From contig JANYJY010000049.1 of assembly GCA_025358295.1 (NCBI GenBank), forward strand, positions 1 to 64,000: a stretch of DNA of 64,000 nucleotides, given 5' to 3'. Positions 26,945 to 41,840 of this stretch are shown here, piece by piece. Both the position numbers and the translations under genes were made by a program. The notes beneath the pieces were generated by a model that had not been told where the DNA came from, did no database searches, and saw nothing but the letters and a program-made list of their open reading frames with translations. Source of the DNA: Gammaproteobacteria bacterium (GTDB lineage Bacteria > Pseudomonadota > Gammaproteobacteria > Steroidobacterales > Steroidobacteraceae). Position 1 is the stretch's first letter. Each line of letters begins with the position of its first letter.

Positions 26945-26987
26945 TAATTCTGCCGTAATTCCCCGTTCCGGTGAATCGGCAATATAT

Positions 26988-27016
26988 TTGACATCTAAAG
27001 TATCTGGATCTATTGT
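26988..27016 (+). promoter_or_regulatory. Sigma-70-like promoter for the aryl-CoA monooxygenase gene, apparently leaderless
   Basis: A perfect -35 TTGACA (26988-26993), a 17-base spacer and TATTGT (27011-27016) lie in an AT-rich patch between two GC-rich genes. The -10 ends only 6 bases before the ATG at 27023, so transcription would start at or next to the start codon. There is no ribosome site before that ATG. Together these suggest a leaderless message. The MarR gene at 30099 is a plausible regulator. Confidence 0.55.
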
Positions 27017-27022
27017 TCTGGC

Positions 27023-29305
27023 ATGAAACGAGTGGTGTTCATCGGCGGCGGCCCGGCAGGGCTTTACGGCTCGATATTGCTGAAGAAGGCGCACCCGGAC
27101 CTGAAAATTGAGGTCTACGAGCGCAATCGGCCCAATGACACATTTGGTTGGGGAGTCGTATTCTCGGATCAGACCATGTCGGGCTTTCGTGCAGCCGACC
27201 CTGAGTCGCACGATGCCATTATCCGGGATTTTCATCATTGGGACGACATCGACGTCCACTTCCGCGGCGAGATGATTCGCTCGAGCGGTCATGGCTTCTG
27301 CGGCATCGGCCGGCGCCGGCTGCTGAATATATTTCAAGAGCGGGCAGATGCGCTCGGCGTGGAACAGCATTTTCAGAGCGAGATCGGCGACCTGGAGCCG
27401 TACGCCGACGCCGATCTCATCATTGCCGCCGACGGGGTGAACAGCAGGGTCAGGTCGCGCCATGCCGACGTATTCAAGCCCGACATCGCCGTCGGCAAGT
27501 GCCGCTTCATTTGGCTGGGCACGCGCCAAAAATTCGACGCGTTCACCTTTGCGTTCGAAGAAACCGAGCATGGATGGTTCCAGATCCATGCTTATCAGTT
27601 CAGCGACGATCTCTCCACGGTAATCGTTGAGACGCGCGAGGAGACGTGGCGGGCCCACGGCCTCGACGGCTACTCCACCGAGCAATCGGTCGCCTTCTGC
27701 GAATCCCTGTTTGCCAAGTATCTGGGTGGATGTGCCTTGATGAGCAACGCGAATCACTTGCGCGGCTCGGCATGGCTGAATTTCAATCGGGTGCTGTGCG
27801 CGCAATGGCATCATGGAAATATCGTCTTGATTGGCGACGCGGCGCATACGGCGCATTTCGGCATCGGCTCCGGCACCAAACTGGCGATGGAAGACGCCAT
27901 GTCGCTGGTCAGCCGGGTGGCGCAGGCGACGGATGTTCGACAAGGGCTGCAAACCTACCAGGCGGAGCGAAGCTTGGAGGCGCTACGGCTGCAAAGCGCG
28001 GCGCGCAACCGCATGGAGTGGTTCGAAAATGTCGCGCGCTACACGAATCTCGAACCGCGACAATTTGCCTATGCGTTGCTCACGGGCAGTCAGCGCATCG
28101 GCCATGCCAATCTCAAACTGCGAGACTCGGCGTTCGTGGCGGAATACGAGCGTTGGCTCGGCGCGCGCAGCGGCGTACACGGAGCGCGCCCGCCCATGTT
28201 CCTGCCGTTCAGTCTCGCGGGAATGCAGCTCGCTAATCGCGTCGTCGTGTCGCCGATGGCGCAGTACAAGGCAATCGACGGCGTTCCCGACGACTGGCAC
28301 CTGATGCACTACGGCTCGCTTGCAGTCGGCGGAGCCGGTTTGCTGTTCACCGAGATGACCTGCGTCTCCTCCACGGGCCGCATCACACCCGGATGCACGG
28401 GGTTGTGGAACGAGGTGCAGCGCGACGCATGGCGGCGAATAGTCGAGTTCGTCCACACTCAGTCGACTGCGAAGCTGTGCTTGCAGATCGGCCACTCGGG
28501 GCGCAAGGGATCGACGCAGCTCGGCTGGCATAAAATGGATTATCCCCTCAGTTCCGGCAACTGGCCGTTGCTGGCGCCCTCGGCGTTGCCGTATATGGCG
28601 GGCATCAGCCAGGTGCCGCACGCGATGACACGGGCGGACATGGATAGGGTGCGCGATGAATTCGTGACGTCCGCCAAGCTCGCCATGGAGGCGGGTTTCG
28701 ACATGTTGGAGTTGCACCTCGCGCATGGATATCTGTTGGGGAGCTTCTTGTCCCCTCTGACGAATCTGCGCGAAGACTCATATGGCGGAGACGTCACGTC
28801 GAGGCTGCGATTCCCGCTGGAGGTTCTCTCCGCGGTGCGGGCTGTTTGGCCGGCGCAGCGACCCTTGTCAGCCAGAATTTCAGCCTGCGACTGGTTCGCG
28901 GGCGGTCTGTCCGAGGAGGACTTGTTGGCGATCGCCGCTGCGCTCAAGCAGGCCGGTGCCGATATTCTCGACGTATCGACGGGTCAGACGGTGCCCGGTC
29001 AACGGCCGCTGTACGGCCGTATGTGGCAAACCCCGTTTGCGGACAGGGTGCGCAACGAGATCGGCATTCCGACCATCGCGGTCGGCAATATCTTCGAGCC
29101 AGACCACGTGAATTCCATCATCGCTGCGGGCCGGGCGGACCTCTGCGCGTTGGCGCGGCCACATCTGGCGAATCCCGCCTGGACGCTGAACGCCGCCGCG
29201 GAACAGAAATATGAGGAACAGGTTTGGCCGGATCCCTATCTTTCCGGCAAGAGCCAGCTCGAACGCAATCTCGAAAGGGCGGCACATGCCGTCGGCCCTG
29301 TCTAA
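27023..29305 (+). CDS. Fused flavin monooxygenase / OYE reductase: salicylyl-CoA 5-hydroxylase or 2-aminobenzoyl-CoA monooxygenase/reductase type
   Basis: A 760-residue two-domain flavoenzyme. Residues 1-~385 are a class A FAD monooxygenase: [20 protein letters not shown] at the start, and [18 protein letters not shown] near residue 270. Residues ~390-760 are an Old Yellow Enzyme-type FMN barrel: [30 protein letters not shown] and a C-terminal TIAVGNIF. This exact fusion is known from 2-aminobenzoyl-CoA monooxygenase/reductase and from bifunctional salicylyl-CoA 5-hydroxylases. It hydroxylates an aryl-CoA and, in the aminobenzoyl case, reduces the ring to a non-aromatic product. RidA, enoyl-CoA hydratase and acyl-CoA dehydrogenase genes follow, fitting subsequent beta-oxidation-like steps. 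The aryl-CoA ligase is not in the window. Confidence 0.88.
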
Positions 29306-29323
29306 GTCTCGGGAGAACTGCGT

Positions 29324-30097
29324 ATGAGTCCTCCACTCGGCGGTTTGCATGCCCTCGTTACCGGCGCCGGGCGCGGCATTGGCGCCGCGATTGCACGCGT
29401 TCTGGCCGATTCCGGCGCCGATGTCACGCTGCTCGGGCGCTCGCTGCCGGATCTCGAGCGCATTGCCGCAAATTTGGGCAATGTCCGGCGCTGCTGTCAG
29501 GTTGCCGACGTTGCCAATGCGGAGTCGGTGCGTGCCGCTGCGGTTGCCGCCCGCGCGGCCATGGGCCCGATCACCTTGCTGGTGAACAACGCCGGCCAGG
29601 CTATGAGCGGCCCCATCGGGAAAACCACCGACGCTCAGTGGCAGACCATGCTGGCCGTGAATCTGACGGGCACGTTTCTCTGCATGCGCGAATGTCTTCC
29701 GGACATGTTGAAGGTCGGCTTTGGGCGCATCGTCAATGTCGCAAGCACCGCCGGAATTGTCGGCTATCCGTATGTGAGCGCGTACTGTGCGTCGAAGCAC
29801 GGAGTGATCGGACTCACGCGCGCCGTCGCGCTCGAGACGGCACGCAAGAACATCACTGTCAATGCCGTGTGTCCGGGCTATACGGATACGGATATCGTGA
29901 AAGCCTCGATCGCCAACATCACCGCAAAGACCGGCCGAACGGAGGCCGAGGCGCTGGCCGAATTGGTGTCGCACAATCCCCAAGGCCGCCTGGTGACCTC
30001 CGAGGAAGTCGCCGATACGGTCCGCTGGCTATGCCTGCGAAGTACATCAAGCATCACCGGTCAAAGCATCGCCGTCGCCGGCGGCGAGGTCATGTGA
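29324..30097 (+). CDS. Short-chain dehydrogenase/reductase of the aryl-CoA cluster
   Basis: A 257-residue classical SDR. The cofactor motif is TGAGRGIGAAIARVLA near residues 14-29, NNAGQAMSGPI follows, and the catalytic Ser/Tyr/Lys lie in VNVASTAGIVGYPYVSAYCASKHG (Ser ~142, Tyr ~155, Lys ~159). PGYTDTDIV is the usual substrate loop. It probably oxidises a 3-hydroxyacyl-CoA-like intermediate or a cyclic alcohol formed after the monooxygenase step. It starts 18 bases after the fused monooxygenase, with a GGGAG ribosome site, and is followed after one base by the MarR gene. Confidence 0.88.
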   Translation: MSPPLGGLHALVTGAGRGIGAAIARVLADSGADVTLLGRSLPDLERIAANLGNVRRCCQVADVANAESVRAAAVAARAAMGPITLLVNNAGQAMSGPIGKTTDAQWQTMLAVNLTGTFLCMRECLPDMLKVGFGRIVNVASTAGIVGYPYVSAYCASKHGVIGLTRAVALETARKNITVNAVCPGYTDTDIVKASIANITAKTGRTEAEALAELVSHNPQGRLVTSEEVADTVRWLCLRSTSSITGQSIAVAGGEVM

Positions 30098-30098
30098 C

Positions 30099-30632
30099 AT
30101 GGCGAGCAGCGCAATACGCCGTTCGAAAGCCGCGGAGCCTGCTTCCGACAGCGAGACGCGCGCGCGGGACGATCACCACGACTCCCTGCGCCTGTGGCTG
30201 CGTCTGCTGAGCTGCTCAACTCTGATCGAGAACCACATTCGGCAGGGTCTGCAGGGCGAATTCTCAACGACCCTGCCGCGATTCGATCTGATGGCGCAGC
30301 TCGAGCGCTGCCCCGAAGGATTGAAAATGGGCGAATTATCGAAGCGATTGATGGTGACCGGCGGCAATGTCACCGGCATCACCGATATGCTGGAAAAGGA
30401 AGGGCTGGTGGCGCGCGTCAACGATCTGCAGGACCGGCGGGCCTTTCGCGTCCGGCTGACGCCGAGCGGCCAGCGCTTGTTCAAGAGAATGGCCGCCGAG
30501 CACGAGCGATGGATCATCGATCTATTCGAAGGCATATCGTCCAAGAGCAAGCAGCAGCTTGCCGGGCTGTTGCGCGAATTGAAGATTCATGTGCGCCAAA
30601 CTGGGCCTTCACGGGCGGAGAACAATGCATGA
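30099..30632 (+). CDS. MarR-family regulator of the aryl-CoA cluster
   Basis: A 177-residue winged-helix protein. The N-terminal tail (about 25 residues) is polar; the core shows [39 protein letters not shown], the recognition region [18 protein letters not shown] and the wing [16 protein letters not shown]. It is embedded inside the operon, one base after the SDR stop, and its own stop overlaps the enoyl-CoA hydratase ATG (ATGA). MarR proteins of this type usually repress and are released by the aryl-CoA thioester or the free aromatic acid. The obvious target is the promoter before the monooxygenase gene. Confidence 0.9.
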
Positions 30633-31438
30633 GTCTGGCCAACCACACGCCCGAGAATTTTCTTTGGCGCACCGACGGTAAGGTCGGCGTCATCACATTG
30701 AACCGACCTGACCGCAAAAATCCGCTGACCTTCGGGTCCTACGCGGAGCTGCGGGATCTGTTCCGCGCGCTCGGCGCAGAACAGGGTGTAAAGGCGATTG
30801 TCATTGCCGGCGCCGGCGGCAACTTCTGCTCCGGCGGCGACGTGCACGAAATCATCGGGCCGCTGACCGGCATGGATGCGCAAGAGTTGTTGAATTTCAC
30901 GCGGATGACGGGCGATCTCGTGCTGGCCATGCGCGAGTGCCCGCAGCCCATTATCGCGGCGGTCGATGGGGTCTGCGCCGGTGCGGGCGCCATTATCTCC
31001 ATGGCCGCCGATTTTAGATTTGCAACGCCGGAGGCGCGCACTGCGTTTCTGTTCGTTCGCGTGGGACTTGCCGGCTGCGATATGGGGGCCTGCGCCGTGT
31101 TGCCCCGGATCATAGGTCAGGGCAGGGCCGCCGAGCTGTTGTACACCGGCCGCTCGATGACTGCGGAGGAGGGACTGGCGTGGGGCTTTTTCAATCGCCT
31201 GGCTGCGCAGTCGGGATTGCTTGCCGAGGCCGTTGAATTCGCCTCCACGTTGGCCGCTGGGCCGACCTTTGCTCACGCGATGACCAAGCGCATGTTGCAT
31301 CAGGAATGGAATATGTCGATCGAGGCGGCAATAGAGGCCGAAGCACAGGCACAGGCTTTGTGCATGCAAACCGAAGATTTTCGACGCGCCTACCGCGCAT
31401 TTGCGAACAAGACCAAGCCGGTTTTCGAGGGAAACTGA
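30629..31438 (+). CDS. Enoyl-CoA hydratase/isomerase family protein (aryl-CoA cluster)
   Basis: A 269-residue crotonase-fold enzyme, start ATG at 30629 overlapping the MarR stop. Visible are [18 protein letters not shown], the oxyanion-hole segment [13 protein letters not shown] (about residues 66-78) and [18 protein letters not shown]. At the usual second catalytic Glu region it reads [19 protein letters not shown], so the classic Glu is replaced (Asp in GCDMG). It may therefore be a hydrolase, isomerase or ring-opening enzyme rather than a simple hydratase. It is flanked by MarR and acyl-CoA dehydrogenase genes in one operon. Confidence 0.88.
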
Positions 31439-31442
31439 TTCC

Positions 31443-32639
31443 ATGACAGCTTCCTCGTTCTTGAACTGGCCGTTCTTCAAGGCGCGGCATCACGAGCTGC
31501 ACGCCGGACTCGAGGCCTGGTGTATGCAAAATCTCAACGTGGCCCATGGCGAGAGCCGCGATTCCGTGGATGCGTATTGCATTGGTCTGGTAAAAAAACT
31601 CGGTGCGGCGGGGTTTCTGCGTCATTGTGTGACGTTGGATCATGGCGGCGCCGCCGCAGATTTCGACGTACGCAGCATCGCCTTGATTCGCGAGACCCTC
31701 GCGCGGTTCGATGGATTGGCGGATTTTGCGTTTGCCATGCAGGGTCTGGGCAGCGGCGCCGTGACGCTCGCGGGCACAGCCGCGCTCCAGGCAAAATACC
31801 TGCCGCGAGTCGTTCGGGGCGAGGCGCTGGCGGCGTTCGCCTTGTCCGAGGAACAGGCAGGTTCCGATGTGGCGGGGATGCAGTGCAGCGCGCGCCGCGA
31901 TGGCGAACACTACGTGCTCGATGGCACGAAGACGTGGATCTCGAACGGTGGCATCGCCGATTTTTACTGTGTATTCGCACGCACGGCTGCGGGGGTCGTG
32001 CGCTCGGACGGCACGACGTCCGCAGCCGGGATTACTGCCTTCGTGGTGGACGCCGCCACTCCAGGGTTGTCGATCGCCGCCCGCATCGACATAGTCGCGC
32101 CTCATCCGATGGGTACTCTCGCGTTTCGCGAGTGCCGGATTCCGGCGGCGAATCGCCTCGGCGATGAAGGCGAGGGATTCAAGATTGCCATGCGCACCTT
32201 GGATATATTCCGCACTTCCGTGGCGGCTGCAGCGCTCGGATTTGCGCAGCGCGCGCTCGATCAGGCCATTCTTCAGGCGCGATCGCGACGCATGTTCGGC
32301 CGGAATTTGGCCGATTTTCAGCTCACCCAGGCTGCGCTCGCCGACATGGCCACTGAAGTGGACGCGGCGCGTCTGCTGACGTACCGAGCCGCCTGGCTGC
32401 GTGACGGCGGTCATCGAGTCACGAAGGAAGCGGCCATGGCAAAAATGACCGCCACTGAAACCGCGCAGCGGGTCATCGATCGTGCCGTGCAGATGTTCGG
32501 CGCACGTGGAGTAATGCGCGGCGAGGTTGTCGAACACCTATACCGCGATATTCGTGCGCTGCGCATATACGAGGGCGCGACCGAGGTTCAAAAGCTCATT
32601 ATTGCGCGCGAACTGCTCGCACCGACGGAGTCGACATGA
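31443..32639 (+). CDS. Acyl-CoA dehydrogenase of the aryl-CoA cluster
   Basis: A 398-residue FAD-dependent acyl-CoA dehydrogenase, start ATG at 31443. Signatures are [16 protein letters not shown] and [16 protein letters not shown] (FAD/substrate region), [17 protein letters not shown], and the C-terminal [17 protein letters not shown] whose Glu is the usual catalytic base (near residue 381). It would introduce a double bond into a CoA thioester, here probably the alicyclic product of the upstream fused monooxygenase. The stop overlaps the RidA start (ATGA). The partner electron-transfer flavoprotein is not in the window. Confidence 0.92.
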
Positions 32640-33055
32640 CCGGTGACAATGCGCTGCCCAGAATTCTATTGCCCGACGGCTGGCCAAGGCCCAAGGGATA
32701 CAGTCAGGGGATGATGGCGCGCGGCCAGCAGATTTTCATCGCGGGGCAAATAGGCTGGGATGCCGACGGCAAGTTCCACAGCACCCGGTTGGCGGATCAG
32801 GTACGTCAGGCCCTGCTGAATATCATTGCCATATTGGCCGACGCCGGCGCGACGCCCGCGCATATCGTGCGCCTGACGTGGTTCGTGACCAGCCGCGATG
32901 AGTACTACGAGCAGTTGGCCGAGATTGGTGCCGCGTATCGGACAGCAATGGGGAAGCACTACCCTGCCATGTCGGTGGTGCAGGTGGTGGCGCTCATGGA
33001 AAAGGACGCGCGGGTGGAAATCGAGGCAACGGCTGTACTGCCGGACGCGGACTGA
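32636..33055 (+). CDS. RidA-family enamine/imine deaminase-like protein
   Basis: A 139-residue YjgF/YER057c/UK114 family member: [19 protein letters not shown] at the N-terminus, [18 protein letters not shown] in the middle, and the C-terminal [23 protein letters not shown]. In RidA a conserved Arg near the C-terminus binds the substrate carboxylate; here the equivalent stretch reads KDARVEIEA. RidA-type enzymes hydrolyse enamines and imines to ketones and ammonia. Inside a cluster for a 2-aminobenzoyl-CoA-type substrate, it could remove the amino group from the ring-reduced enamine. It is translationally coupled to the acyl-CoA dehydrogenase and lies 2 bases before the next gene. Confidence 0.88.
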
Positions 33056-33057
33056 CC

Positions 33058-34521
33058 ATGTGGCGTCCGCCCGAGCGCATCCGGCACGATTCCGGCCCGG
33101 CCGACTGGCCCAGTGCTCAAACGGCCGCGGCTTCCCGCTTATTCTCGCCGATTCAGGTGGGACCCCTTTTGTTGCCCCACCGGACCTGGATTCCCGCCAT
33201 GGTTCCGTGGCGCGCCACGGACGATGGATTCGTCACACAGGACGTGCTTGACTGGTACGAGCGCTTCGCTCAGGGGCGACCGGCGGTCCTCGTCGTCGAG
33301 GCGACTGGAATTCGCGATGTGCCGAGCGGCCCATTGCTACGGATCGGCGATGATCGCTTCATTCCGGGATTACGGCAACTGGTCGAGGTCGTGCGACGCG
33401 CAAGTCGCGGCGAAACTCGCCTGTTCATCCAGCTCATCGATTTTTTGTCGATACGCCGTCGCCCGGATCCGGCGCGGTACTTCGCAGACTTTCTGGTGCT
33501 GACGGATCACCATCGTCGTGCATTCGGAACTTCGGGCGCGACCGACGCACAGATACGAGCCTGGCTCGCCGGCCTTGCGCGCAGCGAGCTGGACAGCGTG
33601 CTCAGCGGTCGGGAACTGGAGGCGCTCGAGCATGGAGCGCGGGAGCGGGTTACGGATATGCACCTCGAGCACATCCGGGATTTACCGCTGCAGTTGCCGC
33701 CGCTGTTCGGTGCTGCGGCACGGCGTGCATGTAAATCCGGGTTCGACGGCGTCGAACTGCACTACGCCCATGCGTATACGATGGCCTCGTTTTTGTCGCC
33801 TCTCAACACCAGGGCGGACGGCTACGGCGGCGCAGTCGAGGGTCGGGTTCGGCTCGCGCTGGAGGTTTACGCGCGTGTCCGCGCCGACCTCGGCGCGGAC
33901 TTTCCCATCGGCTGCCGTTTTCTAGCCGACGAATGCATCGAAGGTGGGGGCTCGGTCAGCGATGCGGAGTACTTCGCCTGCGAATTCGCCATGGCCGGCA
34001 TGGATTTTCTTTCCTTGTCGCGTGGCGGCAAATTCGACGATGCGCAGCAGCCCAAGGTGGGCACGGCGGCGTATCCCTATACCGGACCCAGCGGTTACGA
34101 GTGCATGCCGTCGTACTACTCCGACGCCAAGGGTCCCTTCGGCCGCAATCTGCACGCGACCGCCCGCATTCGAGCCGCGGTACGCGCGGCGAATTGCAGC
34201 ACACCCGTGATTACTTCCGGCGGGATCCATAATTTTGCGCAGGCCGAAGCCGTGCTCGCGTCGGGACAGGCGGATGTGGTGGCCATTGCCCGGCAGGCTC
34301 TCGCGGATCCGGACTGGTTCACGAAAATATTAAGCGGACGGGGCGGGCAAGTGCGTCTGTGCATCTATACGAATTATTGCGAGGCACTCGATCAGCGACA
34401 CCGCCAGGTGACCTGCGAACTGTGGGATCGGGAAGCGCTGGACGAGCCCGGTATTTCGAAGTCGGCCGACGGTAAACGACGCCTGGTTGCGCCGCCATGG
34501 GCCGGCAGCTCAGGCGATTGA
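33058..34521 (+). CDS. Old Yellow Enzyme-like NADH:flavin oxidoreductase, second copy in the cluster
   Basis: A 487-residue FMN-barrel oxidoreductase. After a short N-terminal lead, FSPIQVGPLLLPHRTWIPAM is the usual OYE start. GFDGVELHYAHAYTMASFLS (residues ~227-247) is the active-site strand-loop, and VITSGGIHNFAQAEAVLASG with DVVAIARQALADPDW is the FMN phosphate region. A Cys-containing tail (VRLCIYTNYCEALDQ) resembles the cluster-binding edge of larger family members but has only two Cys. The family reduces activated C=C bonds. It is the last gene of the operon and lies 2 bases after RidA; the substrate is probably a later unsaturated intermediate. Confidence 0.85.
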   Translation: MWRPPERIRHDSGPADWPSAQTAAASRLFSPIQVGPLLLPHRTWIPAMVPWRATDDGFVTQDVLDWYERFAQGRPAVLVVEATGIRDVPSGPLLRIGDDRFIPGLRQLVEVVRRASRGETRLFIQLIDFLSIRRRPDPARYFADFLVLTDHHRRAFGTSGATDAQIRAWLAGLARSELDSVLSGRELEALEHGARERVTDMHLEHIRDLPLQLPPLFGAAARRACKSGFDGVELHYAHAYTMASFLSPLNTRADGYGGAVEGRVRLALEVYARVRADLGADFPIGCRFLADECIEGGGSVSDAEYFACEFAMAGMDFLSLSRGGKFDDAQQPKVGTAAYPYTGPSGYECMPSYYSDAKGPFGRNLHATARIRAAVRAANCSTPVITSGGIHNFAQAEAVLASGQADVVAIARQALADPDWFTKILSGRGGQVRLCIYTNYCEALDQRHRQVTCELWDREALDEPGISKSADGKRRLVAPPWAGSSGD

Positions 34522-34544: not shown

Positions 34545-35159
34545 CTATCCGCGCCAATCGGCGAACACCAACCGGACACACCTGGCGAGGCGCCGAAATA
34601 TCTCTGTGAACGCAATGTCAGGGTCCGACAGGTACATTCCAAAATGCTGATTGAAGAGAGCGAAAATTACCGCAGTGGCGTCGCCGAGCGGCAATCCGCG
34701 TTTGAGTCTGCCTGCGTCTCTGAGTTTCTTCAGTAATTCGTGAATCTGTCCCTGAGCCCGAGATTCCGCCTCGTGAATGAGTTTCGTCAACCGGCCTTCG
34801 TTGCCCATGCCCGGGAATATGGTGAGGCGCAGCAATTCGCGGCTGGCCCAGTTGCGGCCGCCCAAATTCCGATAGGCCGACAATAGCGCCACCATGGATT
34901 TGGCTGGGTCCAGGTGCGGGCGATCCACGACTCTCTGCGCTCTGGCAAACATGCCACTCAAGTCAGGTTCCAAGATGGCGATGACGATTCCCTGCTTCGT
35001 ACCGAAATACTTGTAAACCGTGGCCACGCCGACTTGTGCTTCAGCGGCGATTTCATCGAAGGTCGTGCGCTCATATCCCTGCCGCGCGAATAGGCGGGCG
35101 GCAGCGGAGAGCATGGCGGAACGGCGAATTTCCTTTTGCGACTCGCGGCGTCCGGTCAT
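34545..35159 (-). CDS. TetR-family regulator of the copper cluster
   Basis: A 204-residue TetR protein, start ATG at 35159 overlapping the SCO stop (ATGA). The HTH is in residues ~10-57: RRSAMLSAAARLFARQGYER, TTFDEIAAEAQVGVATVYKYFGTKQG. The C-terminal ligand-binding half is all-helical and unremarkable. It is the last gene of the leftward operon that starts with the cupredoxin fusion, so it probably autoregulates the operon. A candidate operator is the inverted repeat at 39084-39127. The ligand is not predictable. Confidence 0.92.
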   Translation of the reverse strand: MTGRRESQKEIRRSAMLSAAARLFARQGYERTTFDEIAAEAQVGVATVYKYFGTKQGIVIAILEPDLSGMFARAQRVVDRPHLDPAKSMVALLSAYRNLGGRNWASRELLRLTIFPGMGNEGRLTKLIHEAESRAQGQIHELLKKLRDAGRLKRGLPLGDATAVIFALFNQHFGMYLSDPDIAFTEIFRRLARCVRLVFADWRG

Positions 35160-35704
35160 GGCGGATGGTCCGCGGAGAGACGGCCGCGAATCGCCGCGAC
35201 GAGATTGTTGATGGGCTGTTGGGGATGCAACATTTGCATGACATGTCCGTCGGGGGCCACCAAGTAGAAAAGCGTGCCATGGTCGATGATACCGGGTTGC
35301 GCCGACGCGGCCCACGGAACGGAGAAGCTGCGCGCGGCGTCCGCAACGGCAGCCGGGCTCCCCGTCAGGGCCCTTATTCGCGGACTGAAATGCGCGGCGT
35401 AGGCGCGCATCACGGCCGGCGAATCGTGGCTCGGGTCGAGAGTGACGAACAGAGGATCGATGCGATCTGCGGAGGAGCCCAAGCGATTCAGCACGGCAGT
35501 CATGGCGGTCAAGGCTGCCGGGCAGATCTCCTTGCAAGATGTGTATCCGAAGTACACGAGCAGCCAACGCCCATTCAATTCGCGTGCCTCCATGGGCCGT
35601 CCGAATTGATCGATGAGGCGGGTCTCCTCAGCGCCGAACAGGGGATGAGCCAATCCGAGGATCAGGACGACGGCGACGCTCAGCGAGCGGCTCCCCGCCG
35701 TCAT
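35156..35704 (-). CDS. SCO1/SenC-type copper chaperone
   Basis: A 182-residue exported thioredoxin-fold protein, start ATG at 35704, signal peptide about residues 1-24 (LSVAVVLILGLAHPLFGA). The copper/redox motif TSCKEICPA (Cys57 and Cys61) and a downstream His in GIIDHGTLFYLVAP form the canonical Sco Cu-binding set. Sco proteins deliver copper to cupredoxin-like sites such as CuA and guard thiols. No cytochrome oxidase gene is nearby, so its client here is most likely the multicopper oxidase encoded 13 bases upstream, or the cupredoxin lipoprotein. Confidence 0.92.
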   Translation of the reverse strand: MTAGSRSLSVAVVLILGLAHPLFGAEETRLIDQFGRPMEARELNGRWLLVYFGYTSCKEICPAALTAMTAVLNRLGSSADRIDPLFVTLDPSHDSPAVMRAYAAHFSPRIRALTGSPAAVADAARSFSVPWAASAQPGIIDHGTLFYLVAPDGHVMQMLHPQQPINNLVAAIRGRLSADHPP

Positions 35705-35717
35705 AGGGCCACGACCG

Positions 35718-36734
35718 TCATATGGCGACGATCCAGCCCATGGCTCCTTGCTCCGCCATGTGACTTTGATGGGGATGAAACATGTAGCGTCCGCGGCGCG
35801 GCAAGCGGAATTCCAGGATGGCCCGCTCGGCCGGGCCAAGGCTGACGATATCGGTATGTTCACTCGGCGTGAGCGAGGTGCCGCTTCGAAACAAATCGAA
35901 CGTCTGCGCATGCAAGTGAAAGGAGGCGATCGGATCGTGCTCGAGCATGTTCAATAGGTAGATTCGCACCAATTCGCCCACCGGAACCTTGAGCGGAAAG
36001 CGGTCGTAATATCCGGCGAGCCCGTTCCAGGTGTAGATATCATTTCGACCATCGCCGGTTGTATCGAAGCCGCAAAGGCAGAGAATGAATTCATGTGCCG
36101 CGGCACGCGGCGTCACCGGATCGACGAGCATCGCGCCGAACATTCCCTTGCGCAGGTGCCTCGCATACGGCGGGACGTGGCAGTGGTAGGGATGCAGACC
36201 GGCCGGTCCCGCGTCGAACTCATACACCTGACTACTGCCTTGGCCAACCCGCTCCAATCCATCTTGCATGACGTCATGGGTGCCGTGAAAATGGATGCTG
36301 TGAGCCGTTTCTGAACGATTGCTCATGCTAATTTTGACCCGGTCCCCGACAGTGGCCCTGATGACGGGGCCGGGCACGGTTCCGCCGTACGCCCAGACCT
36401 TCACGTATTGACCGCCTGCAACCTCAAGGGTGGTTTCGATCACGGATAGATCATATTCGCGCGCACCGGCCGGGGAGGCGCTGCGCGGCGGCGGGTTGTG
36501 AAAACTGTCGCGGTCGCCGGCGAGGTAGGCTGCGGGCGCAAATTTCGCGTAATTGGGGTCCGCCACTGTAGTGGTCGGCGTGCTGGTGCAATCGATGTCC
36601 AAGGCCGGCAGGGCTGCGACGCGTGCGTCCTTCGCGGCGGAGACCTTGACTGCAGACCAGCCTGCCGCCCCGATCAATCCAATGCCGCCGCCCAGGGTTC
36701 CGAGCCGAAACAAATCGCGACGGCGCAGAGACAT
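35718..36734 (-). CDS. Tat-exported two-domain multicopper oxidase (type C-like)
   Basis: A 338-residue protein with a twin-arginine signal (SLRRRDLFRLG). Two cupredoxin domains follow. Domain 1 has HSIHFHG (H145, H148, H150) and HPYHCHVPPYARHLRKGM, giving H184, C185, H186, H193 and M198. Domain 2 has HLHAQTF (H273, H275) and MFHPHQSHMAEQGAMG (H320, H322, H325). Cys185/His193/Met198 make a type 1 site in domain 1, while paired HxH motifs in both domains suffice for a trinuclear cluster at the trimer interface, as in type C two-domain laccases. It should couple substrate oxidation to O2 reduction in the periplasm. It is not a plain nitrite reductase, which lacks the HxH pairs. The substrate is unknown. 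Confidence 0.88.
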   Translation of the reverse strand: MSLRRRDLFRLGTLGGGIGLIGAAGWSAVKVSAAKDARVAALPALDIDCTSTPTTTVADPNYAKFAPAAYLAGDRDSFHNPPPRSASPAGAREYDLSVIETTLEVAGGQYVKVWAYGGTVPGPVIRATVGDRVKISMSNRSETAHSIHFHGTHDVMQDGLERVGQGSSQVYEFDAGPAGLHPYHCHVPPYARHLRKGMFGAMLVDPVTPRAAAHEFILCLCGFDTTGDGRNDIYTWNGLAGYYDRFPLKVPVGELVRIYLLNMLEHDPIASFHLHAQTFDLFRSGTSLTPSEHTDIVSLGPAERAILEFRLPRRGRYMFHPHQSHMAEQGAMGWIVAI

Positions 36735-37043
36735 TTAGCTGATGCCACCGACGCCGGCGCCCAGAGCCAGCACCAATAGATAGGCAGCCCCGCCTCCCAG
36801 CGCCAGCAGTTTGACGCGGGCCGCAAGCCGCGAGCCGCCCAGAAATAGATAGGCAAGCGCCGCCACGAACGGCAGCGCGAAAATCAGGAATGCCCAGATC
36901 CAGACCTTGGCCGTCGTGAGATCCTCGCGCCGTGCCAGATCCCAAAGAGCCAGGGTGCTCCAAAGCACATACAGCAGCATCGGCAGCAGATATGCATAGA
37001 GTCCCAGAACCATTTGAAGGTTAGTGGGCAAAGTTACTGACAT
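36735..37043 (-). CDS. Small three-helix membrane protein A of the copper cluster (PLDc_N-like)
   Basis: A 102-residue membrane protein, start ATG at 37043, ending exactly at the base before the oxidase start. Segments LYAYLLPMLLYVLWSTLALWD, AFLIFALPFVAALAYLFLG and LLALGGGAAYLLVLALGAG are hydrophobic. The first two with the intervening DLARRE resemble the PLDc_N two-helix module found before cardiolipin synthases and as free-standing membrane proteins. It shares its plan with the neighbour at 37070-37417 (Y-LLP-LLY--W--L---DL). Its role is unknown; position suggests a membrane anchor or partner for the exported copper proteins. Confidence 0.75.
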   Translation of the reverse strand: MSVTLPTNLQMVLGLYAYLLPMLLYVLWSTLALWDLARREDLTTAKVWIWAFLIFALPFVAALAYLFLGGSRLAARVKLLALGGGAAYLLVLALGAGVGGIS

Positions 37044-37069
37044 GGCAATTCTCCACTCGATGATGCATT

Positions 37070-37417
37070 TCAGCTCAGCGCCTTCGGCCCCAGCGGTCCG
37101 CCCGCAAGCCATATTCCAATTGCCAACGGAATCAGCCAAACAACGAGTCCGGCGATCACGATGGGAATCCGCGAGGAACGTTTCAGCGTCCCGGCGGCAG
37201 TCAGCAAGTACCACGCGCCTCCCAGCAGCGGCACCAGTATGACCAGTGCGCCCCAACGCATGCGGCCGCTCACCTCGCTGCGCTCGCTCAAGTCCATGAC
37301 GGACAGAGCTGCCCAAGTTGCGTAGAGAAGAAACGGCAGCAGGTACAGATAAACTACAAACCACACTTGAAACGCGGTCATGGGGTTGGCGAGTGAAAAT
37401 GGCGACGGCATCTGCAT
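37070..37417 (-). CDS. Small three-helix membrane protein B of the copper cluster, paralogue of A
   Basis: A 115-residue membrane protein with hydrophobic segments VWFVVYLYLLPFLLYATWAA, ALVILVPLLGGAWYLLTAA and IPIVIAGLVVWLIPLAIGIW. Its first half aligns by eye with protein A: YLYLLPFLLYATWAALSVMDL against YAYLLPMLLYVLWSTLALWDL. The pair therefore looks like a tandem duplication that has diverged. The start is the ATG at 37417; another ATG lies two codons in. It is 8 bases after the cupredoxin fusion and 26 before protein A, in one operon. The function is unknown. Confidence 0.72.
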   Translation of the reverse strand: MQMPSPFSLANPMTAFQVWFVVYLYLLPFLLYATWAALSVMDLSERSEVSGRMRWGALVILVPLLGGAWYLLTAAGTLKRSSRIPIVIAGLVVWLIPLAIGIWLAGGPLGPKALS

Positions 37418-37425
37418 TCCCCTGT

Positions 37426-39072
37426 CTATAACAGCTTTGCCGGCGGCATTGGCGCGGCTTCACGCGGAGTCTTGATGGCATCGAGGTTCAATTTGCCCGC
37501 GGCAAATACGTGTACGGCCGGCGTTACTGGCGCATCCGCGCCGCCGGGCATGTTCACCTGCGGGGGCGGCGTGGGGCGCGTGCGGTAGTCGCTCAAGGTG
37601 AATTGTCCCATGCGTATCTGCGCGATGGAACCGAAGAAGGTCGTGTCGCCGGAGAGATCGGACGCCATCGGAAATCGAATTTTCCCGCAGCCGTTCAAGG
37701 CCTGCAGGCCCCACGGCAGGGAAGTGCGATGAATATTTCCGGAGAAGCAATTTCCGATGGTTCCCAAGCCGCTGGCCGCGAGATCCGCCCGTCCGGAATC
37801 GAGCACGGTGTTGTCACGAACCACGTGGCCGGTGGCCGGCCAATAGTGCCGATCCAGGATCGGGACCACGACAATGCCGTTGTTGCGGCTGCGCGCTACG
37901 TAATTTCGTTCGACGTGATTGTTGTGCGTGCCGACCAACGCGATGCCGTTGCCCGCCAAAGTCTCAGTCGCGTAGAAGCCGGCCGCCTCATTGTCCAGGC
38001 CGCTGTCGGCGATCACATTGCCGATGATGGTGGTGTCGCGTCCCGGCGGATTCAGTTCGATGTCGAACGTCGTGGTGCTGATGCCGCTGCGATTGTGCGT
38101 GAAACGCGAATTGATGACATACATGTCGCCGCTGGAGTTCGTGCCCGAATAACCCAAGCCGCTGTACTCGCCCGTCACGTCGTTCAATACCACCCTGCAA
38201 GGCGCACACTGTCCCACGTAAAACGACGAGTCCGGCGAGCCGCTCGCATAAGAATGTTCAAATAGTCCGTCCGTCGAGCCGAACGCATAAATGCCGTAAT
38301 CGCCGTTGTTGTAGGCCGTCAGATAGGACGCCCGAAAGCCGCGCACGCCGGTCCAAAAAAATCCGTTCAGCGTGTAGTGGCGGGCGGTCATGTTCTCGAC
38401 TGCCACGCCGTTGCCGCCGACCATGATGCCCGTGGCCAGTTCAAACTTACCGTCGAGAATCACGGCATTGCGGTCCACGCCGCGCAGGGTAATGCTCGGC
38501 GTCGTAACGAAGACCGCCTCGGTGTATTCACCCTTGTCGATCAGCACGAGGTCGCCGGGATTTGCCGCGTCCACGCCGTTTTGAATCGTCGGATAATCCT
38601 GTGGCACGCGCCGCGTCACGCCGGAAGCTGTTTCGACCGCGGCAAGCACGCCGCGCGTTCCGGGCGGCGTATAGTCGACATTCCCCACGACAACCACGCC
38701 GACCATCCCGGCCTTGCCGTCCGGTGTCGCGTGAAAGCTGCAGTAGAACGGGTAGATGCCTTCCTTTGTGAGCACGATTTCGCTCATGTCTTCCGGCCGC
38801 ATCTTAATGTTGCCGAAGGTTTTCTCGCTCGACCAGGACTTGTCGACCGCGATGGCGTTGTGATCGTTGCGCCCTGCGTTGATGAACACGATGGAGCCGC
38901 CGACCGGTATCCGAATGATGGCAGGCGAATAGCTGTTGTCGGCCATGGACACCAGAACCGTGCCCGTCAGCTTGGGCTCGGGTTTGCCGCAGCCGCTGAG
39001 GCCGGCGGCGACCCATAGCGTGCAGATCAGGTACTTGGTGTAGCGCCTAAAGGTAACCGCTGACCGAATCAT
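37426..39072 (-). CDS. Lipoprotein fusing a blue-copper (plastocyanin-like) domain to a NosD-like right-handed beta-helix
   Basis: A 548-residue lipoprotein (lipobox LSGC, Cys28). Residues ~35-130 are a cupredoxin: GTVLVSMADNSYSPAIIRIP at its start, His71 in NDHNAI, and Cys111, His114 and Met123 in YPFYCSFHATPDGKAGM, a complete type 1 copper set. Residues ~150-480 are a right-handed parallel beta-helix: VPQDYPTIQNGVDAANPGD is the classic entry, followed by many N/G-rich rungs with DNTVLDSG and ERNYVARSRNNGI-type repeats as in NosD/PbH1 proteins. Cys pairs (e.g. VGQCAPCRV) occur within it. NosD helps assemble the copper sites of N2O reductase, but no nos genes are here. It is the first gene of the copper operon. 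Confidence 0.85.
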   Translation of the reverse strand: MIRSAVTFRRYTKYLICTLWVAAGLSGCGKPEPKLTGTVLVSMADNSYSPAIIRIPVGGSIVFINAGRNDHNAIAVDKSWSSEKTFGNIKMRPEDMSEIVLTKEGIYPFYCSFHATPDGKAGMVGVVVVGNVDYTPPGTRGVLAAVETASGVTRRVPQDYPTIQNGVDAANPGDLVLIDKGEYTEAVFVTTPSITLRGVDRNAVILDGKFELATGIMVGGNGVAVENMTARHYTLNGFFWTGVRGFRASYLTAYNNGDYGIYAFGSTDGLFEHSYASGSPDSSFYVGQCAPCRVVLNDVTGEYSGLGYSGTNSSGDMYVINSRFTHNRSGISTTTFDIELNPPGRDTTIIGNVIADSGLDNEAAGFYATETLAGNGIALVGTHNNHVERNYVARSRNNGIVVVPILDRHYWPATGHVVRDNTVLDSGRADLAASGLGTIGNCFSGNIHRTSLPWGLQALNGCGKIRFPMASDLSGDTTFFGSIAQIRMGQFTLSDYRTRPTPPPQVNMPGGADAPVTPAVHVFAAGKLNLDAIKTPREAAPMPPAKLL

Positions 39073-39083
39073 GGCTCCCCCGT

Positions 39084-39127
39084 CGAATGTAAATATAAAT
39101 GTATAGTTTTATTCGATTTACTATTCG
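39084..39127 (-). promoter_or_regulatory. AT-rich imperfect inverted repeat before the copper operon (candidate TetR operator/promoter)
   Basis: CGAATGTAAAT (39084-39094) and ATTTACTATTCG (39116-39127) are inverted copies differing by one base and one insertion, flanking an AT-rich core with TATACAT and TATATTT that could serve as -10 elements on the minus strand. The block lies 12-55 bases before the cupredoxin-fusion ATG. Its AT content stands out sharply from the surroundings. The operon's own TetR protein is the natural candidate binder. Confidence 0.45.
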
Positions 39128-39171
39128 TTTCCAGGACCATACGCCCGGTGTTACCGGGTGTCAACGGCGGT

Positions 39172-39211
39172 GGAGGGGAAGCGGATGGAGGGGAAGCGCA
39201 ACTTCCCCTCC
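39172..39211. repeat. Direct repeat plus perfect hairpin between the TonB receptor and copper operon
   Basis: GGAGGGGAAGCG occurs twice (39172-39183 and 39187-39198). The second copy opens a perfect 10-base stem, GGAGGGGAAG / CTTCCCCTCC (39187-39196 and 39202-39211), with a 5-base loop. A smaller perfect hairpin, CCCGGT-GTT-ACCGGG, lies at 39144-39158. Neither is followed by a T run on the minus strand, on which both flanking genes lie, so neither is a standard terminator; the structures could still mark the end of the receptor message or attenuate read-through. Confidence 0.6.
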
Positions 39212-39235
39212 AACTTCGGTTTTAACTTTTAATGC

Positions 39236-41617
39236 CTAAAACGAATGCCTGAACTCAACGCCTATAGTGCGGGGCTGGTTCACGAACAGGCGCGGCCGGC
39301 CGGGAACTTCGGCTGCAATCGAGCGGTTGTCGCCGAGATTCGCGACCTCATTCGCCAGGTTTTTACCGACGAGCGCAACCTCTAGCGGTCCGCGTTGCAA
39401 CGCCAACCTGCCGTTAATAAGCCGGTAGGCGCCACGCTCGCGCGGATTGCCGGGATCGTTATTGGCGCTGAAGCTTCTACCGACATAGGAGTAGTCGGTG
39501 CCGCTGATCAGCTTCCAGCTGCTGGTCAACTGCGTGGTGTACGTCGCCGAGGCGTTCCCAGTCCAGTCGGGCACTTGATAGACCTGAGACCCCACCGCTT
39601 GCGGTGACGACTTGCTCTGCTCGGTAATCTTGGCATTTTGATAGCCGATGCCCAGAGACACCTCGAGCGGCTCCACCGGCCGTGCATGCAGTTCCATTTC
39701 GCCGCCCTTGCTCTCGGCCGCACCGGCGTTTGCGCGGTACTGGAATCCGCAGGGGAGCAGAATCTGCTGCTGGATATTGTTCCACTTGATGTAGAAAACC
39801 GCCGCGTTGAGTGTCAGGCGGTGGTCGAGCCAACCGGTCTTGGTGCCGAGTTCGTAGTTCCACAGCGAGTCGGATTTGAAGCTGCGGGTGTCGCCGATCG
39901 TGATATTCGGATCGATAGCATGCAGCCCGGCAACGCAGTCGTTGGCCCCACCCGGAGTGCCGGGAGGCACGATGGGTACGATGCCGCCAGGCCGAAATCC
40001 CTTGGCAACATTGACATAGACCATCTGCTCCGGAGTGACGTGATAGTCCGCTTCGAATTTTGGATTGACGCCGCTTTCGGTCGTTTGGATGGGCGGGCTG
40101 ACGATCGACGGACCGCCGCCGGTGGCTAATCCTTCCTCGTAGCCGTAAGAGTTGGTTTTCACTTGATACCAGCGCAGGCCGCCGGTCAGCTTCAACTTCT
40201 CCACGGGTTGATAGGAGACCTCGCCGAACACTGCGGGTTCTTTGACCTCGGTATAGAAGTCCGACGCGAAGATCAGGTTTGCGAAATCTGGATTGTTCTG
40301 GCCGCCCAAGGTGGCGTCTAGCCCGGGCACCGTGGCCGGAGGGTAATAGGCGGCAAACGGCAACCTGCCGTGGAAGTCCGAGTAAAATCCTCCGGCGACG
40401 AATTGCACCGGCCCTGGCAAATCCGAGGCGAAGCGCACTTCCTGGACGAAGCGCTGATATTTTTTCACTTCGCTGATCGGCCCCGGCTGTGGCTGCCCTC
40501 CAGGGGCGTTCGAGGTGATCGCCGCATAGACGAAATCGGATTCGTCTTCGGTTTCATACACGCGGCGGTTGAAGTAAGCGGTTGAGGAGACGAGCTCTCC
40601 GATGCCGGTCTTCCAATGCACGCCGATGGAATACAGTTGCCACGCATCGTAGCCGCCTTCCGGGATATTGAACCAGCGCGCCTGCGTGAAGGTCGTCGGA
40701 ATCATCGCAGTCGGCAGGGTATAGGCACCGGAAGGCACCGGGTAGCCGATTCCATTGTTGGGCATGGACAAAAAATCCGCCATCGGAAAGCCGTTGTACG
40801 TCGTTTTCTGCAGCATGACGCGCGGCGTGATGGTGAGAGTATCGCTGAGCTTCAATGTCAGGCTCGCGGCGCCGCCGTAGGTGTTGAGTTCACCGACGTT
40901 GTCCACAGTGGTGATGCCGGTAGTGGCCAAGGGCGTGCACGCCAGACTCATGGCCGCGGCCGGGTCGCTGCAATAGCTGCGCTTGAAAAAACCCGCTTCG
41001 GTGTCGTAGAAGCCGCTCAGTCGCAGCGCGACATGGTCTTCGACGATGGGGATGTTGACGACTCCGTCGGCGGTGTAATTGGGTTGGTTGGTGCGATCGG
41101 TCGAGGACACGCCGCCATGCACGGTCGCGTCAAAAGTGCTTAAGTTCGGTTCCTTGGTGATCAAGCGCACTACGCCGCCCATGGAGCGCGCGCCGTACAA
41201 AGTGCCCTGCGGTCCGCGCAGCACTTCGATATGGTCGATGTCCAAGACCCGGGGATCCAGGGAGTCCGGCAGCGGTATATCGTCGATATAGAACCCGGTA
41301 ACGTTGTCGCCGGAGATGCCGCGAATCGATACCGTGCGTGCGGTGCCGACGCCGTCCCCTGTGGGGGCGAAGGCAAGATTGGGTACCTTGGTGGCGTAAT
41401 CGAAAAAATTGGTAATGCTTTTTTGCTGGAGCGCGATGCTGCTGAACGTCGTCATGGACAGCGGCACGGTTTGTTCGGATTCCGAGCGCTTTTGCGCAGT
41501 CACTACGATCTGTTCCAATTCGTTTGAAGCGGCTGCGGCATCGGCCGCATACACGGGCGTCTGCCCAATTAGTGCCGCCACACCCGCCAAAACAAGGCAT
41601 TTGTTGTATATCGTCAT
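39236..41617 (-). CDS. TonB-dependent outer-membrane receptor
   Basis: About 793 residues, start ATG at 41617 with a GGGAGAATTCTA ribosome region, and a signal peptide ending VYA-AD near residue 24. The plug domain shows IVVTAQKRSESEQTVPLSMT, VSIRGISGDNVTGFYIDDIP and EVLRGPQGTLYGARSMGG. The C-terminus ends IGVEFRHSF, the terminal-Phe beta-barrel signal. Receptors with the TAQKR TonB box are abundant in bacteria that take up complex organic molecules. An exposed loop holds a Cys pair (SYCSDPAAAMSLACTP). Lying upstream of the copper operon on the same strand, it may supply copper or an organic substrate to it; that is inference. Confidence 0.92.
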   Translation of the reverse strand: MTIYNKCLVLAGVAALIGQTPVYAADAAAASNELEQIVVTAQKRSESEQTVPLSMTTFSSIALQQKSITNFFDYATKVPNLAFAPTGDGVGTARTVSIRGISGDNVTGFYIDDIPLPDSLDPRVLDIDHIEVLRGPQGTLYGARSMGGVVRLITKEPNLSTFDATVHGGVSSTDRTNQPNYTADGVVNIPIVEDHVALRLSGFYDTEAGFFKRSYCSDPAAAMSLACTPLATTGITTVDNVGELNTYGGAASLTLKLSDTLTITPRVMLQKTTYNGFPMADFLSMPNNGIGYPVPSGAYTLPTAMIPTTFTQARWFNIPEGGYDAWQLYSIGVHWKTGIGELVSSTAYFNRRVYETEDESDFVYAAITSNAPGGQPQPGPISEVKKYQRFVQEVRFASDLPGPVQFVAGGFYSDFHGRLPFAAYYPPATVPGLDATLGGQNNPDFANLIFASDFYTEVKEPAVFGEVSYQPVEKLKLTGGLRWYQVKTNSYGYEEGLATGGGPSIVSPPIQTTESGVNPKFEADYHVTPEQMVYVNVAKGFRPGGIVPIVPPGTPGGANDCVAGLHAIDPNITIGDTRSFKSDSLWNYELGTKTGWLDHRLTLNAAVFYIKWNNIQQQILLPCGFQYRANAGAAESKGGEMELHARPVEPLEVSLGIGYQNAKITEQSKSSPQAVGSQVYQVPDWTGNASATYTTQLTSSWKLISGTDYSYVGRSFSANNDPGNPRERGAYRLINGRLALQRGPLEVALVGKNLANEVANLGDNRSIAAEVPGRPRLFVNQPRTIGVEFRHSF

Positions 41618-41840
41618 TAGAATTCTCCCGGAAATCGAATACATCCCCTATCGGCTCACGCTACCGCGAGCGATCCGAAGTATCCGGCCGAACTCGATTC
41701 ATTGTCAAAAAGCAGGAAAAGCCAAGGGCGTGGTAGTCTCTGCCGGGTTGCGACACCGCTGTAAACAGTTCGGCTGTCGCGAGCGGCAGCAAGGACATGA
41801 CGCGCGTTGTTCCATGCGCCATCCCGGCTAGGAGATAGCA

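Follow-up and report, generated by a model that had tools for sequence, protein, structure and literature searches.

A Conserved Operon That Appears to Pair a Type C Multicopper Oxidase with a Membrane-Tethered Cupredoxin-Beta-Helix Lipoprotein

Locus and Gene Layout

We analyzed a stretch of 64,000 nucleotides, here called the window, from contig JANYJY010000049.1 of a gammaproteobacterium of the family Steroidobacteraceae (phylum Pseudomonadota). Between positions 34545 and 39072 it carries six genes on the minus strand, all of them open frames that start with ATG:

37426-39072, minus strand: CupBH, 548 aa, a plastocyanin/amicyanin-type cupredoxin fused to a right-handed beta-helix (Pfam)
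37070-37417, minus strand: PLDN1, 115 aa, PLDc_N-type membrane protein
36735-37043, minus strand: PLDN2, 102 aa, PLDc_N-type membrane protein
35718-36734, minus strand: MCO, 338 aa, multicopper oxidase
35156-35704, minus strand: SCO, 182 aa
34545-35159, minus strand: TetR, 204 aa

The core of the operon consists of CupBH, the two paralogous PLDc_N-type proteins with three transmembrane segments each, and the multicopper oxidase (MCO); SCO usually comes next. The unit appears to join a type C multicopper oxidase to a dedicated cupredoxin-beta-helix partner that is tethered to the membrane. An earlier note on this DNA had read the six genes as tightly packed, leftward, and transcribed together. 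The packing is confirmed, with gaps of 0-26 bases (8, 26, 0, and 13 from CupBH to SCO) and one 4-base ATGA overlap between SCO and TetR, and this spacing supports a single predicted transcription unit. The note had proposed recurrence of the ordered neighborhood with variable flanks as a test, and such recurrence is found across genera and in two phyla. Two elements were not in that note, namely a conserved TonB-dependent receptor 163 bases upstream and a promoter-like site with an inverted repeat. All parts of the unit come from known families; their assembly and partner relations are undescribed in the full-text literature that we searched (top-ranked matches, mostly open papers), where no description of this gene set was found.

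That the unit is not a copper-resistance island, as had been proposed, is consistent with the absence of a copper-export gene (CopA-type ATPase or Cus efflux) among the window open reading frames (ORFs) scanned. The resistance-nodulation-division permease of the window fits a multidrug model above cut-off and does not reach those of CusA/CzcA.

The Oxidase and Its Cupredoxin Partner

The oxidase matches Pfam Cu-oxidase_2 and Cu-oxidase_3 and begins with what we take to be a twin-arginine-like motif. Its nearest solved chains are 3gdc (E 1.4e-66) and 7rab (E 2.7e-59). CupBH and MCO were aligned from 15 genomes, leaving out G017, where the locus is cut, G802, whose locus is divided between two contigs, and G1011, which shows no CupBH; genomes (G) and loci (L) are given by our own numbers. 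In all 15 sets MCO residues H145, H148, H150, H184, C185, H186, H193, H273, H275, H320, and H322 are invariant. The type 1 (T1) copper ligands H145, C185, and H193 and the axial residue 198 all lie in domain 1, the axial position being Met in eight sets and Leu in seven while the other T1 and trinuclear ligands are constant. The trinuclear set of eight histidines (H148, H150, H184, H186, H273, H275, H320, and H322) is complete in 15/15, and domain 2 has no T1 Cys at the matching HPH motif. Two-domain oxidases of type C are defined, in the excerpt of PMC13151041 that we used, by T1 ligands in the N-terminal cupredoxin domain only. Thus, the oxidase belongs to the type C set, as the earlier note had it.

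The MCO profile also matches NirK chains, among them 9cck (deposited as NirK), which has identical Cys-to-His spacing. Assignment of MCO to NirK itself was rejected on score and ligands (TIGR02376 76.2 bits against a cut-off of 296.3). NirK takes electrons from cupredoxins and, by analogy, a T1 site in domain 1 as in NirK would suit MCO to a protein electron donor. A scan of genome contigs with MCO gave a single relative, on a Leptospiraceae contig.

CupBH exceeds the cut-offs of Pfam Beta_helix and Copper-bind and falls just below that of Cupredoxin_1. Its blue-copper ligands H71, C111, H114, and M123 are invariant in the 15 aligned sets and make up the T1 His-Cys-His-Met set of a blue copper cupredoxin. 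Cys28 is likewise invariant in 15/15, and the N-terminus carries what we take to be a lipobox motif, so that the protein is presumably a lipoprotein. The C-terminal part of 6hbe (deposited as NirK) matches the CupBH cupredoxin. Distances of CupBH and MCO correlate with r 0.95 over 105 pairs, a value not corrected for the species tree.

The beta-helix is strongly conserved, with 111 residues beyond residue 150 invariant in the 15 sequences, none of them His or Met. Four of its Cys are invariant, of which Cys 289 and 292 are absent in two haloarchaeal relatives. NosD models score CupBH below their cut-offs (TIGR04247 28.3 against 300; PF05048 21.1 against 23.6). The proposal that the beta-helix assists copper-site assembly is therefore not borne out, since NosD stays below cut-off in both libraries and no invariant His or Met is present. 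CupBH is the best-conserved protein of the unit in all eight Pseudomonadota relatives (55-88% against 53-77% for MCO), whereas in Spirochaetota the MCO match exceeds that of CupBH in seven of seven loci (54-59% against 49-51%); because the ranking differs between the two phyla, conservation alone decides little. A single-sequence AlphaFold2 model of CupBH had a mean pLDDT of 33 and was unusable. Plasmid searches returned 14 records with beta-helix matches, none spanning 80% of CupBH, and 26 stretches of viral contigs fitted a pattern, none encoding a relative.

The small membrane proteins differ in how well they fit PLDc_N: PLDN2 scores 28.5 bits, over the 23.3 cut-off, and PLDN1 19.7 bits, under it. 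Hydropathy indicates three hydrophobic segments in each. With PLDN2 as query, PLDN1 of a relative is found at 32% identity, and the two are paralogous by sequence. PLDN2 directly precedes MCO in the examined loci except in G178, where one ORF lies between. In Spirochaetota the PLDN1 counterpart is fused to the CupBH C-terminus, the two forming a single ORF in eight of eight genomes. The fusion points to a location of CupBH at the cytoplasmic membrane, with the small membrane protein as its anchor.

Distribution

Within Pseudomonadota the core order CupBH-PLDN1-PLDN2-MCO is present in 9/9 genomes examined for it (the window, G013, G014, G017, G024, G178, G1073, G1108, and G1053), which represent three genera of one family and another family; the ORF just mentioned in G178 is the one addition. 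SCO follows MCO in seven of the nine, is absent in G014, and cannot be seen in G017, whose contig ends. Flanks are partly common within the genus (G014) and different between genera. Four of 23 genomes in the genus of the window have CupBH, and 8 of 200 in its family have it at full length, with weaker partial matches in 29 more. The MCO clade is found in 9/200 family genomes, the tenth row scoring only 157 bits; the ninth genome, G1011, has a contig end inside PLDN1, so that no CupBH is visible. Searches with CupBH over wider samples gave 3 of 369 genomes of the class at E <=1e-20 (its own genome and G178 at full length, G408 partial) and 2 of 398 of the phylum, with its own genome alone at full length. 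The unit is rare and patchy in this phylum.

Full-length CupBH is also encoded in 8 of 198 Spirochaetota genomes, and MCO scores 542 bits or higher in exactly these eight, with 103 bits as the next score (Fisher p 2e-14, not corrected for relatedness). PLDN2 and MCO come next in all seven uncut loci. The Leptospiraceae genome (G802) has PLDN2-MCO-SCO at the end of one contig and CupBH at the end of a second.

An ammonium transporter adjoins SCO in four Spirochaetota loci (L058-L061) that are 82-91% alike, and we set it aside as probably shared synteny of close species. A more distant one lies about 6 kb off in L057, and that of L058 (14366-16432), beside the operon, is fused to a guanylate-cyclase domain.

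Copper Loading and Regulation

SCO matches SCO1-SenC (E 9.9e-39) with the CxxxC motif CKEIC at residue 57, and is one of three SCO matches in the genome; the operon has an SCO of its own, as the earlier note had stated. TetR matches TetR_N (E 7.1e-17), and of the 24 NCBIfam models that it matched none reached its cut-off. Upstream of CupBH we find two features:

39136-39164, minus strand: sigma-70-like promoter TTGACA-17-TATGGT, upstream of CupBH
39103-39124, minus strand: candidate TetR operator ATAGT-N12-ACTAT, just downstream of the -10 hexamer

The promoter-like site was found once, against a mean of 0.2 in shuffles of that 261-base stretch, and a similar element is present in G024. The repeat is exact in the window, where 0.22 matches are expected per window at one mismatch or fewer. 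It precedes CupBH in six genomes, exactly in the window, G013, G017, and G1073 and with one mismatch in G024 and G178; in G178 the GTG start as listed overlaps the repeat, and the match to the CupBH protein starts further inside the frame. Five of these six show TetR, the G017 contig ending too early, while both TetR and repeat are absent from the loci of G014, G1108, and G1053. Where TetR is present and the start of CupBH can be seen, the repeat is found in 5/5 loci; where TetR is absent, in 0/3. Spirochaetota loci contain three copies with one mismatch (one in L047, two in L003), none of them before CupBH. We infer that TetR may repress or switch the operon through this candidate operator, in line with the regulator that the earlier note had assigned to the unit.

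Another palindrome, CCCGGT-N3-ACCGGG in the promoter spacer, was rejected as an operator: no exact copy occurs in the 260 bases before CupBH of 13 relatives, and at two mismatches or fewer four were found against 4.5 expected, which is chance level. The interval between receptor and CupBH in the window also holds a hairpin with a perfect 11-bp stem (39186-39212) that resembles a terminator only when read on the plus strand. G024 has, between receptor and promoter, a G+C stem and then a run of eight T, so that the receptor there is probably a separate transcription unit, although the hairpin scan lists this stem on the opposite strand alone; the receptor of the window is probably its own unit as well.

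The TonB Receptor and Its Catabolic Neighborhood

The gene next upstream of the operon is the receptor:

39236-41644, minus strand: TonB-dependent receptor, TonB plug and barrel, 163 bases upstream of CupBH

A receptor lies beside the operon in six genomes, in G1073 on the TetR side. Orthologues of at least 63% identity occur in 21 of 200 family genomes, comprising 9/9 with the operon and 12/191 without it (Fisher p 2.5e-10, not corrected for relatedness). The earlier note had called the oxidase self-contained; this is doubtful, given that the unit tracks with the receptor in the family of the window.

Receptor loci were fetched for all 12 operon-less genomes and for G1053 and G1108, some on short contigs. 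By tblastn, genes of tryptophan tryptophylquinone (TTQ) amine dehydrogenases lie within 10 kb of the receptor in 7 of the 12 operon-less genomes; one of the seven, G1151, has just a partial TTQ heavy chain at a contig end. In searches with profile hidden Markov models, G1123 has one heavy and one light chain over the Pfam cut-offs and under those of the NCBIfam methylamine-dehydrogenase models, which are stricter, and one MauD of G002 passes its own cut-off. The loci of eight operon-bearing family genomes, G1011 being outside this set, contain neither MauA nor MauB (p 0.015, a count over loci and not whole genomes). Three of the 12 operon-less loci encode a decarboxylase like one that passes Pyridoxal_deC, and two encode HpaE and an extradiol-dioxygenase-like gene, while a pyrroloquinoline quinone (PQQ) alcohol dehydrogenase stands near the receptor in operon-bearing and operon-less loci alike. 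Receptor orthologues near TTQ amine dehydrogenase genes are seen in L113-L117, L120, and L122, some of which also hold decarboxylase, PQQ dehydrogenase, or homoprotocatechuate-type genes or a P450-like ORF, named from sequence only. A locus with receptor and TTQ genes is possibly one for amine uptake and oxidation.

Around the operon itself, G024 has a copper amine oxidase after it (over the Pfam cut-off; NCBIfam 623 against 651), and in G178 two Pyridoxal_deC proteins surround it. The stretch 23256-34521 of the window, convergent with the operon, encodes an indolepyruvate-oxidoreductase-like pair (the beta-type subunit over its cut-off) and a protein over the cut-off of a salicylyl-CoA 5-hydroxylase model that we take to be a relative of 2-aminobenzoyl-CoA monooxygenase. 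It also encodes a short-chain dehydrogenase/reductase (SDR), MarR-like, RidA-like (below cut-off), and old yellow enzyme (OYE)-like proteins, and proteins of beta-oxidation type (crotonase, acyl-CoA dehydrogenase). IorA-like, monooxygenase, and SDR genes recur in G014 at 82-91%, with no OYE found there. By association only, this neighborhood points to amines or amine-bearing aromatics in the family of the window. In G1053 and G1108 the receptor is directly preceded by an ORF (L119 8564-9406; L121 7611-8546) that by its sequence we assume to be nickel/cobalt-transporter-like, a neighbor that might indicate a metal-chelate cargo.

Proposed Mechanism and Alternative Explanations

The hypothesis that we favor, tentatively and with a little less than even confidence, is that the unit is a copper electron-transfer module of the periplasm that is tethered to the membrane, has O2 as its end point, and perhaps serves amine or aromatic catabolism. 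Its lipid and the adjoining PLDc_N protein would keep CupBH at the cytoplasmic membrane, and the blue-copper domain of CupBH would hand single electrons to the T1 copper of MCO, whose trinuclear site would reduce O2 to water. The predicted path would run from a substrate or dehydrogenase to the CupBH copper, on to the MCO T1 site and the trinuclear site, and finally to O2. SCO would help to load copper, and the beta-helix would be a substrate- or partner-binding part and no copper chaperone. In the lineage of the window, a TetR repressor on ATAGT-N12-ACTAT would switch the operon, and the module together with the TonB receptor would take part in periplasmic amine or aromatic catabolism, for which related loci carry instead a TTQ amine dehydrogenase, a class of enzyme that reduces cupredoxins. 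The CupBH cupredoxin is the donor candidate because it is the sole conserved one in the unit, and transfer from CupBH to MCO is argued from ligands kept in 15/15 sets and from the two proteins being apart, across the two samples covered for both, nowhere but at a contig break. As the excerpt of PMC12723479 states, amicyanin is a carrier for the electrons of methylamine dehydrogenase.

Several observations weigh against this proposal. There is no obvious primary dehydrogenase among the genes of the unit. SCO was not found in two of the seven uncut Spirochaetota loci or in G014. Of the alignable invariant beta-helix residues, 79 of 106 are common to a stand-alone Haladaptatus relative without a cupredoxin; because such relatives share many of these residues, the role of the beta-helix may predate the copper unit. 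As to the receptor, the identity cut of 63% was set after the gap between 63% and 57% had been seen, and only the five best candidates per genome were scored. Five of the 12 operon-less receptor loci, some on short contigs, show no TTQ genes. Possibly the amine link is confined to part of one family, since tblastn found no TonB receptor of this group in the eight Spirochaetota loci and since the receptor of G1053 and G1108 is on a different contig from the operon.

In the version of the earlier note, MCO would be an ordinary periplasmic oxidase whose copper-assembly factors are CupBH (as a NosD-like protein), the membrane proteins, and SCO. The presence of SCO after MCO in 7/9 Pseudomonadota genomes and 5/7 uncut Spirochaetota loci, the weak similarity of CupBH to NosD, and the four invariant beta-helix Cys are in keeping with this, but the sub-threshold NosD scores in both libraries, the lack of an invariant His or Met in the beta-helix, the loss of Cys 289 and 292 in two haloarchaeal relatives, and the better conservation of CupBH than of MCO within Pseudomonadota, though not in Spirochaetota, lead us to regard it as fairly unlikely. 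It also seems rather unlikely that MCO is laccase-like and oxidizes phenols or amines directly, with CupBH only tethering it to a polymer or membrane and the cupredoxin a side donor. Excerpts of the literature report that some two-domain oxidases are laccases (PMC13151041) and that some bacterial laccases degrade biogenic amines (PMC11312515), and catabolic genes are neighbors here; yet all four CupBH blue-copper ligands are kept in 15/15 sets, and only at a contig break do CupBH and the MCO clade occur apart in the two samples that were searched for both.

Quite unlikely, in our judgment, is a bolder scheme in which CupBH and MCO form a quinone-free, all-copper, O2-linked dehydrogenase of amines or amine-derived aromatics, the beta-helix binding the substrate, the cupredoxin taking its electrons, and MCO passing them to O2, so as to replace the TTQ enzyme in the receptor-linked locus. 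If true, species within one genus would use either of two unrelated systems to carry out one and the same step. Also quite unlikely is a unit that, like CueO or IoxA, oxidizes or handles metals (Cu, Mn, Fe) or iodide and for which the receptor would bring in a metal chelate. The presumed nickel/cobalt-transporter-like ORF beside the receptor in G1053 and G1108 and the metal transporters beside a Rubrobacter MCO homologue would fit such a role. CueO has a methionine-rich copper-binding segment, and the mere nine Met of the 338-aa oxidase speak against one here, as does, for the role as a whole, the lack of a copper-export gene among the window ORFs scanned. The iox clusters too combine an MCO with SCO proteins, but IoxA is a 62-kDa protein with three SCO homologues (both from the excerpt of PMC9415286).

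Comparison with Known Systems and Significance

The closest structural counterparts of the oxidase are the type C two-domain enzymes 3gdc and 7rab, which share its two cupredoxin domains, domain-1 T1 site, and trinuclear histidines. The homologue on a Rubrobacter plasmid, the sole relative on plasmids whose gene surroundings were compared, sits with metal transporters and has no annotated CupBH or PLDc_N gene near it. NirK, including the 6hbe form with an extra cupredoxin, has a related two-domain fold and T1 loop; unlike NirK, the oxidase keeps the eight-His trinuclear set, and it scores 76 bits against the 296-bit NirK cut-off. Its blue-copper partner is a separate lipoprotein. The NosD and TIGR03805 beta-helix families have a fold like that of CupBH, although both models stay under cut-off, and the operon differs from them in its cupredoxin and PLDc_N partners and in having no ATP-binding cassette (ABC) transporter in the unit. 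No NosF/NosY-type ABC transporter was reported among the window ORFs scanned either. In Ruegeria pomeroyi (L033, 2055-6281) a protein annotated as parallel beta-helix domain-containing, a c-type cytochrome, a cytochrome c peroxidase, and a tetratricopeptide-repeat protein form one gene row, so that the company of a beta-helix with electron carriers recurs.

The TTQ (mau-type) loci have the TonB receptor group in common with the operon loci, and amicyanin, a cupredoxin, accepts the electrons of methylamine dehydrogenase according to the excerpt consulted; by contrast, the operon encodes an oxidase, and its loci in the eight family genomes lack MauA/MauB. The iox iodide oxidase cluster resembles the operon in joining an MCO, SCO-family genes, and partners of unclear function, whereas the excerpt of PMC9415286 gives IoxA the size and SCO number stated above and mentions no cupredoxin/beta-helix or PLDc_N protein.

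To our knowledge, two-domain multicopper oxidases are mostly known as isolated proteins without assigned partners. A partner set conserved in two phyla, together with a natural fusion, predicts a physical route that would lead from a cupredoxin anchored in the membrane to a type C oxidase, and the operon supplies a candidate operator and a candidate substrate class. Scattered annotations as beta-helix, PLDc_N, and multicopper oxidase thereby become one testable redox system, possibly a copper-only alternative to the TTQ amine dehydrogenases.

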